DNA from: a virus
Length of the DNA: 42,170 bases
Direction: 5' to 3' (one strand)
Virus record (IMG/VR): IMGVR_UViG_3300009431_000040
Coordinates: 1-42,170 of that record
Shown here: positions 3,130 through 33,201 of the stretch, piece after piece
How the letters are laid out: every line of letters begins with the position of its first letter
How positions within the stretch are numbered: position 1 is the first letter of the stretch
The notes under the pieces: model-generated
Seen by the model: the letters and a program-made list of their open reading frames with translations, nothing else
What the model was told of the DNA's origin: nothing
Database searches by the model: none
Position numbers and translations under genes: made by a program

Positions 3130-3843
3130 TTAAATGCTGTCCTGTATAATGTCAGTGGACGAAATGCTGTCCTGAATTATGTCTGTGCTTATAATAGAAT
3201 CCTGAATAATATCAGTATCCTCCACTATAAATATGGCGTTGCAATTTGCCGGTATAATGGCAAGTGCAAAATCCTGTAAAACATTGTAGTTATTGCTCCT
3301 GAACTCCCAGGGGAACGGCACTGGAAAAAGGTTCGGTTGAACCTCAGGGATGCTATCATCAAAGTCCATTTCAAACACGACTGTAAACCGTGCCTCGCGG
3401 TCGCCCGCCGGTCCTGGCGGGAATGAAACCCTGGGGTCCGGGTTCAAAATAAAATAATAACCCGGGTAAACGGTAACCACAAAGCCCAGCAATGAACAAA
3501 GCCATTCCAAATCTTCGGCCGTGCTAACACCCTCGGCCGAAAGTTTGGTGACAACATGCCGGCGACGTTCCTCCGCCGTGCCTATCGCTGGAAAATCATC
3601 ATCGGGTATGCCCGCCGCCTTCTCCCACTCAGTCAAAAATGTGGCGACCTTTGTGATTATGCGTCCGTCATTTGCATCGCTAAGGTTTTGCTCTAGGCGC
3701 CTAAATTCTTTGGACATACCTTTGAGCCACTTGAATATATTTTTACCAGGCAACCGCTTCGCCTTCATATGAGACCCGTCAATCTGGTAATCGGCCGTGA
3801 TGCGAGTGTGGTCATTGTCCGTTCTGGTAGGGAGAAATGGCAT
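3130..3843 (-). CDS. Mu gp48-like baseplate protein (DUF2313/YmfQ family)
   Basis: A 237-residue protein between the gp47-like protein and the fibre gene, the normal place of Mu gp48. The segment WLKGMSKEFRRLEQNLSD followed by LTEWEKAAGIPDD and the AEERRRHVVTKLSAEG region is typical of the DUF2313 family, whose members begin by placing a Phe/Trp-rich helix against the hub wedge. The last 40 residues are unusual: three tandem copies of DIIQDSI with short Ser/Thr linkers, encoded by a 30-bp DNA repeat. It overlaps the upstream stop by one base, implying coupled translation. Confidence 0.85.
   Translation of the reverse strand: MPFLPTRTDNDHTRITADYQIDGSHMKAKRLPGKNIFKWLKGMSKEFRRLEQNLSDANDGRIITKVATFLTEWEKAAGIPDDDFPAIGTAEERRRHVVTKLSAEGVSTAEDLEWLCSLLGFVVTVYPGYYFILNPDPRVSFPPGPAGDREARFTVVFEMDFDDSIPEVQPNLFPVPFPWEFRSNNYNVLQDFALAIIPANCNAIFIVEDTDIIQDSIISTDIIQDSISSTDIIQDSI
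3134..3223 (-). repeat. Three tandem 30-bp repeats in the gp48-like gene
   Basis: On the plus strand three 30-bp units start at 3134, 3164 and 3194. Units 1 and 2 share ATGCTGTCCTG; unit 3 is more diverged (ATAGAATCCTG). Each encodes about DIIQDSIxST at the protein C-terminus. The unit length is a multiple of three, so copy-number change would keep the frame. Confidence 0.85.
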
Positions 3844-5156
3844 TAATTATTCACCGTAATAGTTCCCTCTATTGCAATTTCGCCTTGTGCCACCGGCTCA
3901 TCAGCCACCGGCAAATCCAAGACAAAGGACTGTATTTTTTGCCCCTTCACAACATCGTACGTCTGAAATATCGAGCTTTTTAGTTTTTCAACCTGATTAT
4001 CCTCGCCCTCTTCCACCGAACCCCTGTAATATGTTTTGATGGTATCTTCCACAGCCTGACGCATCGACAGGCTGTCGGGAATAATAGCACTAACAGTCAC
4101 ATCAATCGGAACGCCGGTGGGTGCCTCAATATGCACATCGCTTTCCTCGGTGTTTGCTGGCGTAATAGCCAGCACCGCATCCAGGGCCGTTTGAACCTCG
4201 GAAGCCTCCGGTATGATGGTTTCGTCGTTATCCCGCACAAAATAGGCGGTCACGGCGCCCACAATTGGGGTTACCCGGTGGACCCATACCCGGGTATTTC
4301 CATTGATACCCCGTATTACTGATTCGATGCGGGCCGGGTTGAAGGGGGTTTGCGGGTTTTGCCACCGCTCAACAATGCGGTCCTGATAATCCTCGGTACT
4401 TTCATCGTCAATGCCGCCTTGGAGGCCCTCGTATTGAACAACGGCGGTATCATCCACCCCCGCGATGGGTGTTTGTACCGACATTTCTGTGCCGCCGTCC
4501 TGGTTTGTTCCGCTCCCCGATTCCGAGCAGATTACATCGCCCGACCCGTTGTTATAACTGGCGGTAATTGTTCCGGTGGCGGGTGAGACTATACCCAAGG
4601 GGACAGCGAATTGGATGCTTTTCAGCCCGGTTACTTCAATGTCATCCCATTGCTGGTTCCACTCGGCTTCATTTGCGCCGGCGATTGTAATGGATTGCCC
4701 GCTCCCCAGGTTGTGGTCATCATCAAACAGACAGACCGCCGTGGTTCCGCTGGCATTTAAATTCGCTATAGATTTAACCTGCGCCACAATGGTCACATCG
4801 TTGTCCACCGTGTATTCTAAAGAGCCTATTGTCCACACTTCGCCGGCGCTGATTATGCTGGCGGGCGTGCCGGTAAAGGATACAAGACCCTTTGCTGGCG
4901 TTGCCGTCAACGGTGTAAGGTTCTTCAAATCGGCCCATAATTGCAGGTATTCGTCGGTTGCCGTATCGGGGAAAGCCTGTTTCAACGTCTCCTTGAGCTG
5001 GAAATAGTAATCGTAAACACGGTTTCCAAGCCCAACAGGCACGGCTCTTATGAGGCTGTTACGGAGCCAGGGATTTGAATTGGAAAGTTCAGCCTTTACA
5101 TCCGACAGGATGCGCTGGATGACTTCGTTTGAATTATTTGGTAAAATTAGACCCAT
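3843..5156 (-). CDS. Baseplate wedge protein J / Mu gp47 family
   Basis: A 437-residue protein of the baseplate J-like family. Its N-terminal helix region contains DYYFQLKETLKQAFPDTATDEYL followed by LxPLTATPAKGLVSFTGT, and the GGIDDESTEDYQDRIVERWQNP segment near 240-270 is a hallmark of the family (a GG-xDxE-xxxRxR turn). C-terminally it has ITPANTEESDVHIEAPT and an alpha/beta wedge domain. In Mu this protein forms the wedge ring with gp46 and gp48. Here it lies in exactly that order, two bases after the gp46-like stop. Confidence 0.92.
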   Translation of the reverse strand: MGLILPNNSNEVIQRILSDVKAELSNSNPWLRNSLIRAVPVGLGNRVYDYYFQLKETLKQAFPDTATDEYLQLWADLKNLTPLTATPAKGLVSFTGTPASIISAGEVWTIGSLEYTVDNDVTIVAQVKSIANLNASGTTAVCLFDDDHNLGSGQSITIAGANEAEWNQQWDDIEVTGLKSIQFAVPLGIVSPATGTITASYNNGSGDVICSESGSGTNQDGGTEMSVQTPIAGVDDTAVVQYEGLQGGIDDESTEDYQDRIVERWQNPQTPFNPARIESVIRGINGNTRVWVHRVTPIVGAVTAYFVRDNDETIIPEASEVQTALDAVLAITPANTEESDVHIEAPTGVPIDVTVSAIIPDSLSMRQAVEDTIKTYYRGSVEEGEDNQVEKLKSSIFQTYDVVKGQKIQSFVLDLPVADEPVAQGEIAIEGTITVNN

Positions 5157-6674: not shown

Positions 6675-7978
6675 AGGAATTCCCCCTCGTTGAAATTGGA
6701 GCCTATGACTGAAAATTGCTTCTGGGAATCGGTGGCAACGGCGTCCGCACTGTATGCGTCCGGTATTGTAAATGTCAGCTCCGCAACCTCCTCCGCATCC
6801 CCGGTTTTGGTCTTTCGGGATACAAGGGTGACGGATTTTATTAATAGGGTCGCATTTATGTCGGCAATTTCATCGACTACCGGTACCAGGTACCCCGCCT
6901 CCCAGGGTTCATCATCAGCAATCAGGTCAGCCGTCGAGCAGGAATACGCAATGGATTTAACCCTGGCGGTATTGCATTTCCATTTTGCCAGCCGCTCGCA
7001 CTCATCATCATCGCTCGGGTCCTCCGCCGTTTCCCACATTGCCCCGTCATCCACATCGGGGTCGGTGACGGTGCCACTGGTTTGAACCCTTTTTGTTGCG
7101 AATTTTTTTGTGGGCGCCGGGTTGCTGGTGCCCAGTGCGACAAGCAGATTAGTGAGCACGCGTTCTTGTTCACTGCCTTTTTCCATATGCTTCAGGAGCT
7201 GCTTTATGCCGTCAATGTCCTCCTGGTTTTGCAGCAACTGCTCATCCGGTTCTTCCGTTTTGGGTGGCGTGTAATTCTCGCCCTCCGCCGGGGGCGCCTC
7301 CGTGCGGGGTACCGATACATTAACCTGAGATACCACGTTGTATTCAGCCCGGCGGTCCGTGTCATCCGTGCGCCCTTTGCCCTTCAGGATATTGTTCAGC
7401 CCCTCAGGGTCGTTGAATAGCTGGCGAAGGGTTTTCTGATAAATGCGAGTGTTCGGCCGCACAATAATGACTTGACCCTGGCGGTTTTTGGTGATTAGAA
7501 CCTGGCGCTTTTCCGCAAGCTTGGTCCAGAATTCCCAAATAGTACAACCCGCATCCTCCGTCAGTACTTCCTTGCTGGTATAATCATCCAAATCGCCCAC
7601 AAGGTCGACCACATCAATATCAATATCGGTCGCCGCAAGCGTTTTTTCCATGACCTTTTTGAGTTGGATTGGGCCTTTTACGACAAAATTCGGGGGCAAA
7701 TCGGTCTTCAAAATCACCTTGAGGGCATCCCGGCCCTCAACGCTGACCTGATAACTTTCGGGGTCGTATTCCACATCCAGAATTTCAACCTTGCCCGGGA
7801 GCACGGTGAAGCCCTCGACCAGAACATCCATCTTTGCGCCCCTGGGTATTGGGAAGGCTTTTGCACGGTCCGCCGTACAATCGAATTTGAATTGGTTGCA
7901 CAACTGGTCCACGTTATCAGTCACAGATACGGAACTGAACCCGGTGAACTCCTTGTTGTTTACCAAAGCCGAAATCAT
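6671..7978 (-). CDS. Baseplate hub protein, Mu gpP(gp44)/P2 gpD-like
   Basis: A 435-residue protein with hub-type features: FTGFSSVSVTDNVDQLCNQF near the start, GAKMDVLVEG, and VEILDVEYDPESYQVSVEGRD. An insert rich in Pro, Glu and Gln (about 225-275) separates the halves, and the C-terminal part holds NTARVKSIAYSCSTA and LTFTIPDAYS. It forms the ring from which the spike hangs. It overlaps both neighbours by four bases and follows the gpN-like gene as in Mu. Four Cys residues are present but not as a clear metal site. Confidence 0.88.
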   Translation of the reverse strand: MISALVNNKEFTGFSSVSVTDNVDQLCNQFKFDCTADRAKAFPIPRGAKMDVLVEGFTVLPGKVEILDVEYDPESYQVSVEGRDALKVILKTDLPPNFVVKGPIQLKKVMEKTLAATDIDIDVVDLVGDLDDYTSKEVLTEDAGCTIWEFWTKLAEKRQVLITKNRQGQVIIVRPNTRIYQKTLRQLFNDPEGLNNILKGKGRTDDTDRRAEYNVVSQVNVSVPRTEAPPAEGENYTPPKTEEPDEQLLQNQEDIDGIKQLLKHMEKGSEQERVLTNLLVALGTSNPAPTKKFATKRVQTSGTVTDPDVDDGAMWETAEDPSDDDECERLAKWKCNTARVKSIAYSCSTADLIADDEPWEAGYLVPVVDEIADINATLLIKSVTLVSRKTKTGDAEEVAELTFTIPDAYSADAVATDSQKQFSVIGSNFNEGEFL

Positions 7979-30748: not shown

Positions 30749-30763
30749 GCGGCGATAGTGACA

Positions 30764-30778
30764 CATTTAAAAACGCAA
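30764..30778 (-). promoter_or_regulatory. Repeated control motif, copy B
   Basis: The minus strand reads TTGCGTTTTTAAATG and overlaps the 5 prime end of the HTH regulator. Just upstream the 15 bases ATTAAACTTTTTAAT also occur in the terS promoter region at 35070-35084. Confidence 0.55.
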
Positions 30779-30798: not shown

Positions 30799-31908
30799 TT
30801 AATATGCGGCGGGTGTACGGTCCATCTTTTCGGCTATGGGTGAGTAGCTGGCGAAAACGTTGCCAGCTCCCACCGCGCAACCGATGGCGGTCATAAAATC
30901 AACCTCGCAGTCGTATTCATGAATTACACCATCGCGGAATAGCCGAAGGTCATCCTGTACCAAATCCATGCAATTTATCACCAAATTGCCCAAGTCCCGC
31001 CGTATTTGTTCATCTTTTGAACTTGCGTACCCAAGCAAATCAAGGTCAAGAATGGTTTGCCGGAAGCGGCCCTGGTAACCGGTCTCCAGATTGTGCTCAT
31101 ATTTATTGGGAAGTATTTGGTGTGGCACAATTGGCGACATTGGCCCGTTGCCGTGCCGTGTCTGGTATGCCCGGGTCACCATCCAAATTTGGTCAATTGT
31201 AACTGGGATGTTCTGGGTGCCGGTATTTGATGGGGTCACATGTGGGAAAAAACCGTGGTTCTGGTCCAACAAAAGCCCCTGGGAGCCTTCGAAAATCACC
31301 GTTTGCGCTTGGTACATTATGTCGTTTTCATGCCTCACGCTCACGTTTTTGGATTTTACTATGCGCCCGCACATTTCCAAGAATTCATCAATCCAATTGA
31401 ACGGGATCGCGCCGGCGCGATCCTCCAATAATCTCAACTTGTGGCGCAATGCTGATGGGTAATACAAGTCGCCAAACCGCAACCGGAAGCCATCCTGTTC
31501 CCGGCGCACCGTTTCAAATATGCCCACCCCGCACGAGCCGTCGCCCATTGTGTCGGCGTTTTGGTGGTTCAACCATATTTCGACCGGGGTTGTTACTGGG
31601 CAATCAGGGTTCACAAATATGTAAGGATTCACCCCCTTCTTCTTTAGCACCGCCAGCTCATTCATGATGGCCACTGGGGAAACAATCACGTACTTCGTCA
31701 ACTGGGTAGAGGCACCCCGAAAGGTGCCACTCCCAAAACTTGAAAAAACATGTTCACGGCCGTCAGCCATAACAACGTGATGCCCGGCTTGGTGCCCACC
31801 CGAAAAGCGCACTACAACCGGGGCCTCGGCGTCCTGGCACAACATGTCAACTACATGCCCTTTGCCCTCGTCGCCGAAGCCCATGCCTATCACGGCGTGA
31901 ACGTTCAC
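30799..31908 (-). CDS. Adenylosuccinate synthetase-like enzyme (PurA/PurZ type)
   Basis: A 369-residue enzyme, shorter than cellular PurA (about 430). IGMGFGDEGKG carries the GDEGKG loop with Asp13 in the same position as the E. coli catalytic residue. RFSGGHQAGH supplies the second catalytic His (His43), and VTTPVE with HG/GDGSCGVG-type DGSCGVGIFETVRR replaces the PurA IGTT region. The GSGTFRG and CPVTTP patterns recall phage PurZ, which makes 2-aminoadenylosuccinate from dGMP for Z-DNA. PurZ members I know of usually lack this Asp, so substrate (IMP or dGMP) is open. It overlaps the vWA stop by four bases. Confidence 0.8.
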   Translation of the reverse strand: MNVHAVIGMGFGDEGKGHVVDMLCQDAEAPVVVRFSGGHQAGHHVVMADGREHVFSSFGSGTFRGASTQLTKYVIVSPVAIMNELAVLKKKGVNPYIFVNPDCPVTTPVEIWLNHQNADTMGDGSCGVGIFETVRREQDGFRLRFGDLYYPSALRHKLRLLEDRAGAIPFNWIDEFLEMCGRIVKSKNVSVRHENDIMYQAQTVIFEGSQGLLLDQNHGFFPHVTPSNTGTQNIPVTIDQIWMVTRAYQTRHGNGPMSPIVPHQILPNKYEHNLETGYQGRFRQTILDLDLLGYASSKDEQIRRDLGNLVINCMDLVQDDLRLFRDGVIHEYDCEVDFMTAIGCAVGAGNVFASYSPIAEKMDRTPAAY

Positions 31909-32798
31909 AGCATTTCCTCTTCTTCGTCCTTGGTTTGCTGGGCTTGGGTAGTTTGGGGTTGCGGTTCATCACTTGTGGCTGTTGCGGGGGCCGTTGCGGC
32001 GCTGTAATTGCGTGTTATTGCCTCCTTGATTACCCGGGCAACATCTTTCCCGTTTTCAGCAATCAGAAGGTTATCCCCCAGCATTTCTCGCCAGGCTGGC
32101 TCTGGCTTGTACATCTGGGCGCCGTATGTACCCTGAATATGCACGTGAAAAACGTGGTAGGATTTGCGAGCCAGTTCAAGCAATTCGGCCGCACTGTAAT
32201 CCACAAACTCACCGTCGCCCATAATGCCTTTCAGGGTCAGTTTTCCGATGTTGGGATGGAGCGGTTCATCGCCCACTGTAAAGATGAAGCCCTTTTGCCC
32301 GCGCTTCTCCATACAGTCGATTGATGTGTGTTTTGCGGCAAAGTACCAAGCGAGGTGATAACTTTCACCGGCATTGCCACCGCCCGCGCCTTCAAGGAAA
32401 ACAGCCTTGAGCCACTTATCCAGGAGTTCATCGCTGGATTCAAATTGCCCAATCTGGAGGGGCGCACGGTCGGTCATGTGGTCACCGATGCCCATGAACA
32501 AAACCTGGGGGTCGGCCATGCCGTGCTCAATTATGTTGCCCATAATGTGCGGCAAACCGTCCTTGAGCAGCTCGTGCGGGATGCGGCCCATGGAGCCAGT
32601 CACATCCAGCGCCAGTACAATTGCAACCGAAGCGGGGTGTTCCTCGCTGTCCCTAGCTTCCCTCACGCGAACGCCCCGGGGGTCCATTTCGGTGTTCAAC
32701 GAGCGCTGGGTGAAAATTTCCTCCTTGGTTTTGCTATGGTAACCAAGCGAGGCGGCCCTGGTAACATGGTTGTGGGTTGAGTATGAACCGCCGCCCAT
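31905..32798 (-). CDS. Von Willebrand factor A domain protein
   Basis: A 297-residue protein. IVLALDVTGSMG gives the MIDAS motif (Asp65, Thr67, Ser69), and FIFTVGDEPLHP supplies the later Asp177. Residues about 125-150 carry a Gly/Ala-rich MIDAS-side loop (GAGGGNAGESYH). The last 30 residues are Pro/Gln/Thr then acidic. No signal peptide or TM, so it is cytoplasmic. It is coupled one-base with a coiled-coil gene upstream and four-base with the PurA/PurZ-like gene downstream. No MoxR ATPase is near. Role unknown. Confidence 0.8.
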   Translation of the reverse strand: MGGGSYSTHNHVTRAASLGYHSKTKEEIFTQRSLNTEMDPRGVRVREARDSEEHPASVAIVLALDVTGSMGRIPHELLKDGLPHIMGNIIEHGMADPQVLFMGIGDHMTDRAPLQIGQFESSDELLDKWLKAVFLEGAGGGNAGESYHLAWYFAAKHTSIDCMEKRGQKGFIFTVGDEPLHPNIGKLTLKGIMGDGEFVDYSAAELLELARKSYHVFHVHIQGTYGAQMYKPEPAWREMLGDNLLIAENGKDVARVIKEAITRNYSAATAPATATSDEPQPQTTQAQQTKDEEEEML

Positions 32799-33142
32799 TA
32801 CTCACCCCCGAAAAGGTATTCGTACCTTTTGCGGGCTTCGGTGAGCCTGATATTGGTGTTGCGGATTTTTACGCTCAGCTCGATGTCCTTTTTTACAAAT
32901 TCCTCGGAATCGAAATCGCTGGCGAGCTTGAGGCTTTGTGCATTTTCCGGGGATAGGTCGAGCATGTTTTCCTGGTCACGCTTCATGCGCTTCACCTTTA
33001 CCTCAAGGTCTTCGATGTTCCGCTTGTAAAGCAGCTCGGTATCCTCGGAAATCGCATCCGCCCGGTCTTTGCGAATTTGCCGGTTGTTGCGTTGCAACGA
33101 TTCAACAAACGCACCCTTTTTTACTTCATTTTCCTGTTCCAT
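32798..33142 (-). CDS. Coiled-coil protein coupled to the vWA gene (114 aa)
   Basis: It starts at ATG 33142 behind GGGAGGGAATA. Almost the whole protein is charged helix, with LYKRNIEDLEVKVKRMKRDQ. Its stop overlaps the vWA start, suggesting a physical or stoichiometric partnership. It lies about 30 bases after a TATTAT -10 and the repeated motif, so it may begin the vWA/PurA-like transcript. Confidence 0.7.
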   Translation of the reverse strand: MEQENEVKKGAFVESLQRNNRQIRKDRADAISEDTELLYKRNIEDLEVKVKRMKRDQENMLDLSPENAQSLKLASDFDSEEFVKKDIELSVKIRNTNIRLTEARKRYEYLFGGE

Positions 33143-33172
33143 TATTCCCTCCCTGGGTTGTGGTTTTGAGCG

Positions 33173-33201
33173 ATAATACACATTTAAAAATGCAATGTAC
33201 A
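33173..33201 (-). promoter_or_regulatory. Promoter of the coil-vWA-PurA-like operon with motif copy C1
   Basis: TGTACA (33201-33196) and TATTAT (33178-33173) are 17 bases apart. The spacer is TTGCATTTTTAAATGTG, containing copy C1 of the repeated motif (33181-33195). A second copy, TTGCGTTTTTTAATG, lies 15 bases further upstream (33210-33224). Confidence 0.55.

Follow-up and report, generated by a model that had tools for sequence, protein, structure and literature searches.

What a virus does with a gene for an adenylosuccinate synthetase (AdSS)-like protein depends on the family to which the protein belongs: it may be a PurA of ordinary adenine synthesis, a PurZ or PurZ0 of the pathway leading to 2-aminoadenine-containing Z-DNA, or neither. 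This question is raised by a minus-strand gene of the IMG/VR record IMGVR_UViG_3300009431_000040, whose 42,170 bases make up the entire window analysed here and whose completeness as a genome is not assured. The original prediction described the gene as coding for a phage AdSS-like enzyme, possibly of a type intermediate between PurA and PurZ. The open reading frame (30799-31908, minus strand, 369 aa) was confirmed, as were the motifs GDEGKG (residues 12-17), GHQAGH, GSGTFRG, CPVTTP and DGSCGVG. The protein matches Pfam PF00709 (E=1e-44) and PHROG phrog_1211 (E=5e-60), its AlphaFold2 model has a mean pLDDT of 95.3 and its Foldseek matches are AdSS structures. The assignment to the AdSS enzymes was thus correct, and the open reading frame is a genuine AdSS homologue, not a chance one. 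Because the record encodes head proteins (HK97-type capsid and portal, terminase), a sheath, a tape measure and a baseplate of Mu-type tail/baseplate organisation, and a DnaD-like loader, its gene content identifies it as a myovirus, apparently without a recognisable DNA polymerase of its own. The features of the locus are collected in Table 1.

Table 1. Coordinates of the AdSS-paralogue gene, its diagnostic motifs, its partner genes and the flanking elements in the window.
Feature	Position	Strand	Evidence or conservation
AdSS-paralogue gene (PurA-like), 369 aa, GTG start	30799..31908	-	PF00709, phrog_1211, AlphaFold2, Foldseek
GDEGKG loop with Asp13 and Lys16	31858..31875	-	159/159; PurZ and PurZ0 have Ser at 13
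GGHQAGH: catalytic His retained, Gln in place of Asn38	31780..31800	-	His 159/159, Gln 156/159
TRHG: His in place of E. coli Val273, a ribose contact	31150..31161	-	His 158/159
YQGRFR: remodelled aspartate-binding loop (TTGRRRR in E. coli)	31060..31077	-	residue replacements
VWA/MIDAS partner protein, 297 aa	31905..32798	-	phrog_2971, conserved MIDAS residues, model
114-aa charged, predicted coiled-coil protein	32798..33142	-	profile match to bacterial operon homologues
Conserved element TTGCATTTTTAAATGTGTATTATCGC, promoter candidate, upstream of the trio	33170..33195	-	near-identical copy downstream
Second copy of the element, TTGCGTTTTTAAATGTGTCACTATCGC, just downstream of the trio and ahead of the next gene	30752..30778	-	

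The placement of the protein was addressed by phylogeny, curated profiles and fold comparison. In a maximum-likelihood tree, a 100/100 branch split 31 phage and 25 bacterial proteins of the module described below from cellular PurA, archaeal PurA, PurZ and PurZ0, the archaeal reference being a partial sequence from a printed alignment, so that its exact position is approximate. Clustering inside cellular PurA was looked for in this tree and not seen, and the same separation does not support an intermediate between PurA and PurZ, since the family lies outside both. The AdSS paralogue scored 52.8 bits with the NCBIfam PurZ model (cut-off 300) and remained below the cut-offs of the PurA models TIGR00184 (111.6 versus 395.55 bits) and NF002223 (132.6 versus 402 bits). 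The resemblance to PurZ that had been read from the last four motifs did not hold either, because the protein is nearer to bacterial PurA both by profile comparison (200 bits versus 43 bits for PurZ) and by fold (TM 0.78-0.81 between the AlphaFold2 model and bacterial PurA, 0.65-0.67 for PurZ/PurZ0); the four motifs are signatures of another family, PurZ reading FGSTGKG...NAGHT. On sequence grounds, the AdSS paralogue represents a distinct family that spans phages and bacteria and is outside PurA, PurZ and PurZ0. A canonical PurA above the curated cut-off was also found in 15 of 16 bacterial genomes carrying the module, and the AdSS paralogue is therefore not their housekeeping copy. Housekeeping PurA was rejected on the curated cut-offs, the pocket residues and this second PurA in the same genomes.

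It is barely conceivable that the gene encodes an enzyme of the PurZ or PurZ0 type, which would turn dGMP into 2-aminoadenylosuccinate for Z-DNA. Such an enzyme would be in keeping with the superfamily, the phage origin and the RefSeq/PHROG label '2-aminooxy adenylosuccinate synthetase', but the clade is different and the protein carries Asp13 where phage PurZ has Ser in 147 of 147 sequences (PMC12884076). These 147 are the only phage sequences in the PurZ group among 481 phage AdSS homologues found in that study (PMC12884076), and the VWA-linked AdSS family is therefore probably among the remainder. The label itself (phrog_1211) covers true PurZ as well as the separate clade described here. 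Two entries of the phage collection look bacterial: AFYI01000007, a Salmonella contig with a housekeeping purA, resembles a bacterial chromosome, and so does OR844989, entered as 'Staphylococcus phage', a contig of 283 kb that carries no annotation and has a PurA-like match. Partner genes of the Z pathway also argue against PurZ. The absence of DatZ-, MazG- and PolA-type partners noted in the original prediction was borne out, as no DatZ-, MazG-, PolA- or Dut-type gene was found with Pfam in 66 minus-strand open reading frames or with PHROG in the larger ones, and DatZ, MazZ, DutZ and DpoZ were all missing from the 42-kb record, possibly an incomplete genome. A YfbR/DatZ-like family protein was present in just 2 of 29 related phage records that carry the module. 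PurZ and PurZ0 were rejected on residue 13, the tree, the profile scores and these absent partners. The expectation that the enzyme is not a standard PurZ is supported by the retained Asp13, the 100/100 separation and the score below the PurZ cut-off; the protein is almost certainly not a PurZ, and the gene gives no evidence for Z-DNA.

AdSS enzymes work in two steps, in which GTP phosphorylates the C6 oxygen of the purine and an amine then displaces the phosphate. The residues serving this reaction were compared, in E. coli numbering, between 159 family members and 14 cellular PurA, 4 PurZ and 2 PurZ0 proteins. Asp13, Lys16 and His41 (residue 43 of the window's own protein) are each present in 159/159 members, in agreement with the Asp13 noticed beforehand in the window, and Gln224 (158/159), Thr239 (155/159) and Asp333 (151/159) are nearly as constant. 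Invariance of the first three residues despite deep divergence favours retained catalysis and makes it very improbable that a catalytically retired AdSS fold serves as a purine-nucleotide sensor or a scaffold for the VWA protein, a role with which the diverged substrate pockets would agree. Changes in the pockets are extensive. Position 38, Asn in all PurA and PurZ references, is Gln in 156/159 members, Thr129 is replaced by Cys or Val in 154/159 and Arg143 is not conserved; in PurA these three residues contact the 5'-phosphate of IMP, and Thr301 and Arg305 contact aspartate. Within the aspartate loop, T301 became Gln (157/159), R303 is lost by a one-residue deletion (159/159) and R305 became Phe or Leu (153/159), the exact pairings being less sure than the overall change because the numbering crosses this one-residue gap. 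The Val at position 273 of all 14 PurA, 4 PurZ and 2 PurZ0 proteins is His in the family. All seven residues (N38, T129, R143, V273, T301, R303 and R305), which are replaced or lost in the family, are kept in all 14 cellular PurA. In PurA, Arg303 contacts the 2'-OH of IMP as well as aspartate, and the position of Val273 is near the ribose (PMC8342488). With the core kept and the pockets changed, the two-step reaction most likely still proceeds, though not in the usual IMP plus aspartate mode, and the alignment makes it fairly likely that the AdSS paralogue uses altered substrates. With Asp13 retained, dGMP or another 2-amino purine is a less probable substrate.

These residues also bear on the simplest metabolic explanation, namely that the protein is an auxiliary enzyme performing the plain PurA reaction (IMP, aspartate and GTP to adenylosuccinate) to raise AMP during infection, with the VWA protein as a stabiliser. 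The full AdSS fold and a catalytic core that includes both Asp13 and Asp333, the latter of GTP type, are what such an enzyme would need, and host PurB would make a phage lyase needless, in line with the finding that an adenylosuccinate lyase (Lyase_1) encoded next to the module, a candidate that was considered and rejected, occurred in none of 29 long phage records. However, the aspartate, phosphate and ribose contacts shared by all 14 PurA are lost in nearly all of the 159 members, and the bacterial carriers own a PurA already and have the module linked to NrtR. This explanation is, on balance, unlikely.

The most telling feature of the locus is the partner VWA gene, which the original prediction overlooked. 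The stop codon of this gene overlaps the GTG start of the AdSS-paralogue gene, and its product matches phrog_2971 (E=2e-39). The VWA residues D65-x-T67-x-S69, D106, G140, E145 and G176-D177 are invariant across 70 homologues, and the model (pLDDT 92.7) has integrin I-like/VWA domains as top Foldseek matches. Further upstream, the stop of the coiled-coil gene overlaps the VWA start (TAATG), and the coiled-coil protein of the window scores 157.8 bits against a profile of bacterial homologues that occupy the corresponding place in their operons. The order is thus coiled-coil, VWA and, last, AdSS paralogue, with overlapping stops and starts and translational coupling. On the minus strand, the near-identical elements flanking the trio read TTGCRTTTTTAAATGTGT...ATCGC. 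Within this longer element, the 13-bp sequence TTTTTAAATGTGT has exact matches only before and just after the trio, which suggests that the elements are phage promoters bounding a single transcription unit. The module that we propose is defined by an adjoining MIDAS-bearing VWA gene and, upstream, a gene for either a coiled-coil or a J-domain/kinase-like protein; the window (30799-33142) has the VWA gene and the coiled-coil form.

Searching viral contigs with the single protein gave no match, and relatives were then found by profile searches. With the AdSS-paralogue profile, a VWA gene was near the AdSS paralogue in 78 of 80 viral contigs, the other two being cut by contig ends; in phage loci it is nearly always directly upstream on the same strand. 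From the VWA side, 77 further loci were retrieved, of which 74 contain the AdSS paralogue and three are truncated. The VWA profile also matches bacterial chromosomes of several phyla, where 78 of the 80 best loci contain the AdSS paralogue. The AdSS paralogue and the VWA query retrieved almost the same set of phages, the records numbering, respectively, 189 and 188 for Mycobacterium, 10 and 10 for Rhizobium, and 6 and 6 for Vibrio. In independently drawn samples, the two genes occurred in the identical 13 of 150 Flavobacterium genomes and the identical 3 of 200 genomes from the order that includes Massilia, and none of the genomes searched had only one of them. In the sampled genomes, neither gene is acquired or lost without the other, the patchy presence of the pair pointing to an accessory, mobile unit, and there is hardly any doubt that the AdSS paralogue belongs to an obligate VWA module. 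The third member varies. A coiled-coil protein is the upstream partner in 68 phage and 44 bacterial loci, and a J-domain/kinase-like protein (kinase-like by Pfam on LinStu gp257, J-domain by the HPD motif that its sequence shows) in 22 phage and 29 bacterial loci; the two were found together in none of 185 loci. Examples of the replacement of the coiled-coil protein by a J-domain plus kinase-like protein are L003 (2601-3674) and, among bacteria, L237 (3490-4539), whose protein lacks usual kinase catalytic motifs evident by eye and may be a pseudokinase. A known anti-phage defence system was rejected, as ten module proteins gave no match to PADLOC models at E 0.01.

The surroundings of the bacterial modules point to a physiological context. 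Of 80 bacterial loci, 40 have a full-length NrtR-type Nudix regulator (NrtR_WHD plus NUDIX) no more than ~9 kb away, and in 39 of these the distance does not exceed 4.5 kb; the regulator gene usually adjoins the J-domain gene, and the loci come from Bacteroidota, Pseudomonadota and Actinomycetota. NrtR regulators have been reported to sense ADP-ribose (PMC9503650). Pfam confirmed KptA/Tpt1, ADP-ribosylglycohydrolase, NADAR and NAMPT in Flavobacterium and Chryseobacterium loci, in which macro, Sir2 and PRPP synthetase were also read in the sequence; the KptA, ADP-ribosylglycohydrolase and Sir2 neighbours come mostly from related flavobacteria. Loci L179-L198 of these two genera hold dense NAD/ADP-ribose clusters in variable order around the module, including the unassigned clusters c8 and c13. 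A link of the module to ADP-ribose/NAD is likely in bacteria. Such neighbours are rare in phage loci, and NAMPT, present in 5 of 29 long phage records, is no more frequent than the published rate of 22-33% in larger phages (PMC9503650), so that an enrichment of NAD genes in phages was not borne out. A Pfam scan of 66 minus-strand open reading frames of the window found neither NAMPT nor other NAD/ADP-ribose genes. With so weak a link, the role in phages is one that we infer, and the chances that the association extends to them are about even. In one Vibrio phage locus (L004), the module is flanked by NADAR and an Rv2179c-like 3'-5' exoribonuclease (3465-4115; 7107-7751).

These observations are best explained by an enzyme in a VWA-assisted module that applies AdSS chemistry to substrates different from IMP and aspartate, or to substrates held in another way, a reading that we consider reasonably probable; the module itself is probably linked to ADP-ribose/NAD. 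The AdSS paralogue would supply the enzymatic activity of a module of three genes, the other two encoding the VWA protein and the coiled-coil (or J-domain/kinase-like) protein. As in AdSS chemistry, GTP would phosphorylate the C6 oxygen of a 6-oxopurine and an amine would then displace the phosphate, the 6-oxopurine being of the hypoxanthine rather than the guanine type because Asp13 is kept; the substrate pair would differ from free IMP plus aspartate or be differently bound. The VWA protein could act as an adaptor that depends on Mg2+ and recruits the target or controls its access, whereas the coiled-coil and J-domain proteins could serve as interchangeable factors for assembly or recruitment. 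ADP-ribose/NAD signals acting via NrtR probably turn on the bacterial module, which would work among ADP-ribose-processing enzymes. For phages it would be a portable unit, whose use may be the repair of adenine/NAD-type nucleotides during conflicts. A different target would be involved if the enzyme were a macromolecule-modifying purine ligase that joins an amine of a VWA-held protein or nucleic acid to the C6 position of an activated nucleotide of the hypoxanthine type, or that works on hypoxanthine within ADP-ribosylated or RNA substrates. This is quite unlikely, even with an obligate VWA partner of peptide-binding type, a rebuilt aspartate loop and phosphate site, and the bacterial ADP-ribose neighbourhood all pointing towards it. 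Returning to altered AdSS chemistry in a VWA-assisted module, a fuller reading, which we put forward tentatively and hold to be possible rather than probable, is that of an undescribed mobile nucleotide/ADP-ribose conflict or repair system of phages and bacteria, in which the VWA protein hands the target to a GTP-dependent ligase of AdSS type. This ligase would not use free IMP, and would use aspartate either not at all or not exclusively. It could, for example, re-aminate hypoxanthine-type NAD/ADP-ribose derivatives or attach a purine to a macromolecule.

An important consequence concerns annotation. Hundreds of phage genes named 'PurA-like' or '2-aminooxy adenylosuccinate synthetase', with >180 mycobacteriophage records among them, are probably mis-filed beside the Z-DNA pathway and belong to a two- or three-gene unit that is also chromosomal in bacteria under an ADP-ribose-type regulator. 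This gives a direct answer on which phages have Z-DNA: not the carriers of this module. Should the changes in the pockets reflect new substrates, a new reaction would be added to a classic family of purine enzymes. The open-access literature, to which the search was confined (subscription papers were outside its scope), holds no description of the module and nothing linking AdSS/PurA with vWA, with NrtR, or with NAD+ plus ADP-ribose plus phage defence; the VWA-AdSS-paralogue module is apparently undescribed.

Among known systems, bacterial PurA (for example E. coli, PDB 1ade) shares with the AdSS paralogue the fold (TM 0.77-0.81) and Asp13, Lys16, His41, Gln224, Thr239 and Asp333, whereas the paralogue forms a separate clade, has replaced pockets and a shorter C-terminus and is always accompanied by the VWA partner. 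Phage PurZ and PurZ0 share the superfamily, the occurrence in phages and a length of about 340-410 aa; in contrast to them, the AdSS paralogue keeps Asp13, lies in a different clade and comes without Z-pathway partners. The 'PurA-like adenylosuccinate synthetase' of Bxz1-type mycobacteriophages (phrog_1211; LinStu gp260) is the same module and family at ~35% identity, with gp258 as the VWA protein and gp257 as the kinase, but the J-domain/kinase-type partner replaces the coiled-coil protein of the window. Finally, the ADP-ribosylglycohydrolase-centred systems (Iyer et al. 2022, PMC9503650), described in a text that does not mention adenylosuccinate synthetase or PurA, share the NrtR-type regulator, the ADP-ribose-processing enzymes and a vWA protein, such proteins having been noted there as peptide-binding chaperones. 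Here, in contrast, the constant partner of the VWA gene is the AdSS paralogue and the ADP-ribosylglycohydrolase is optional.
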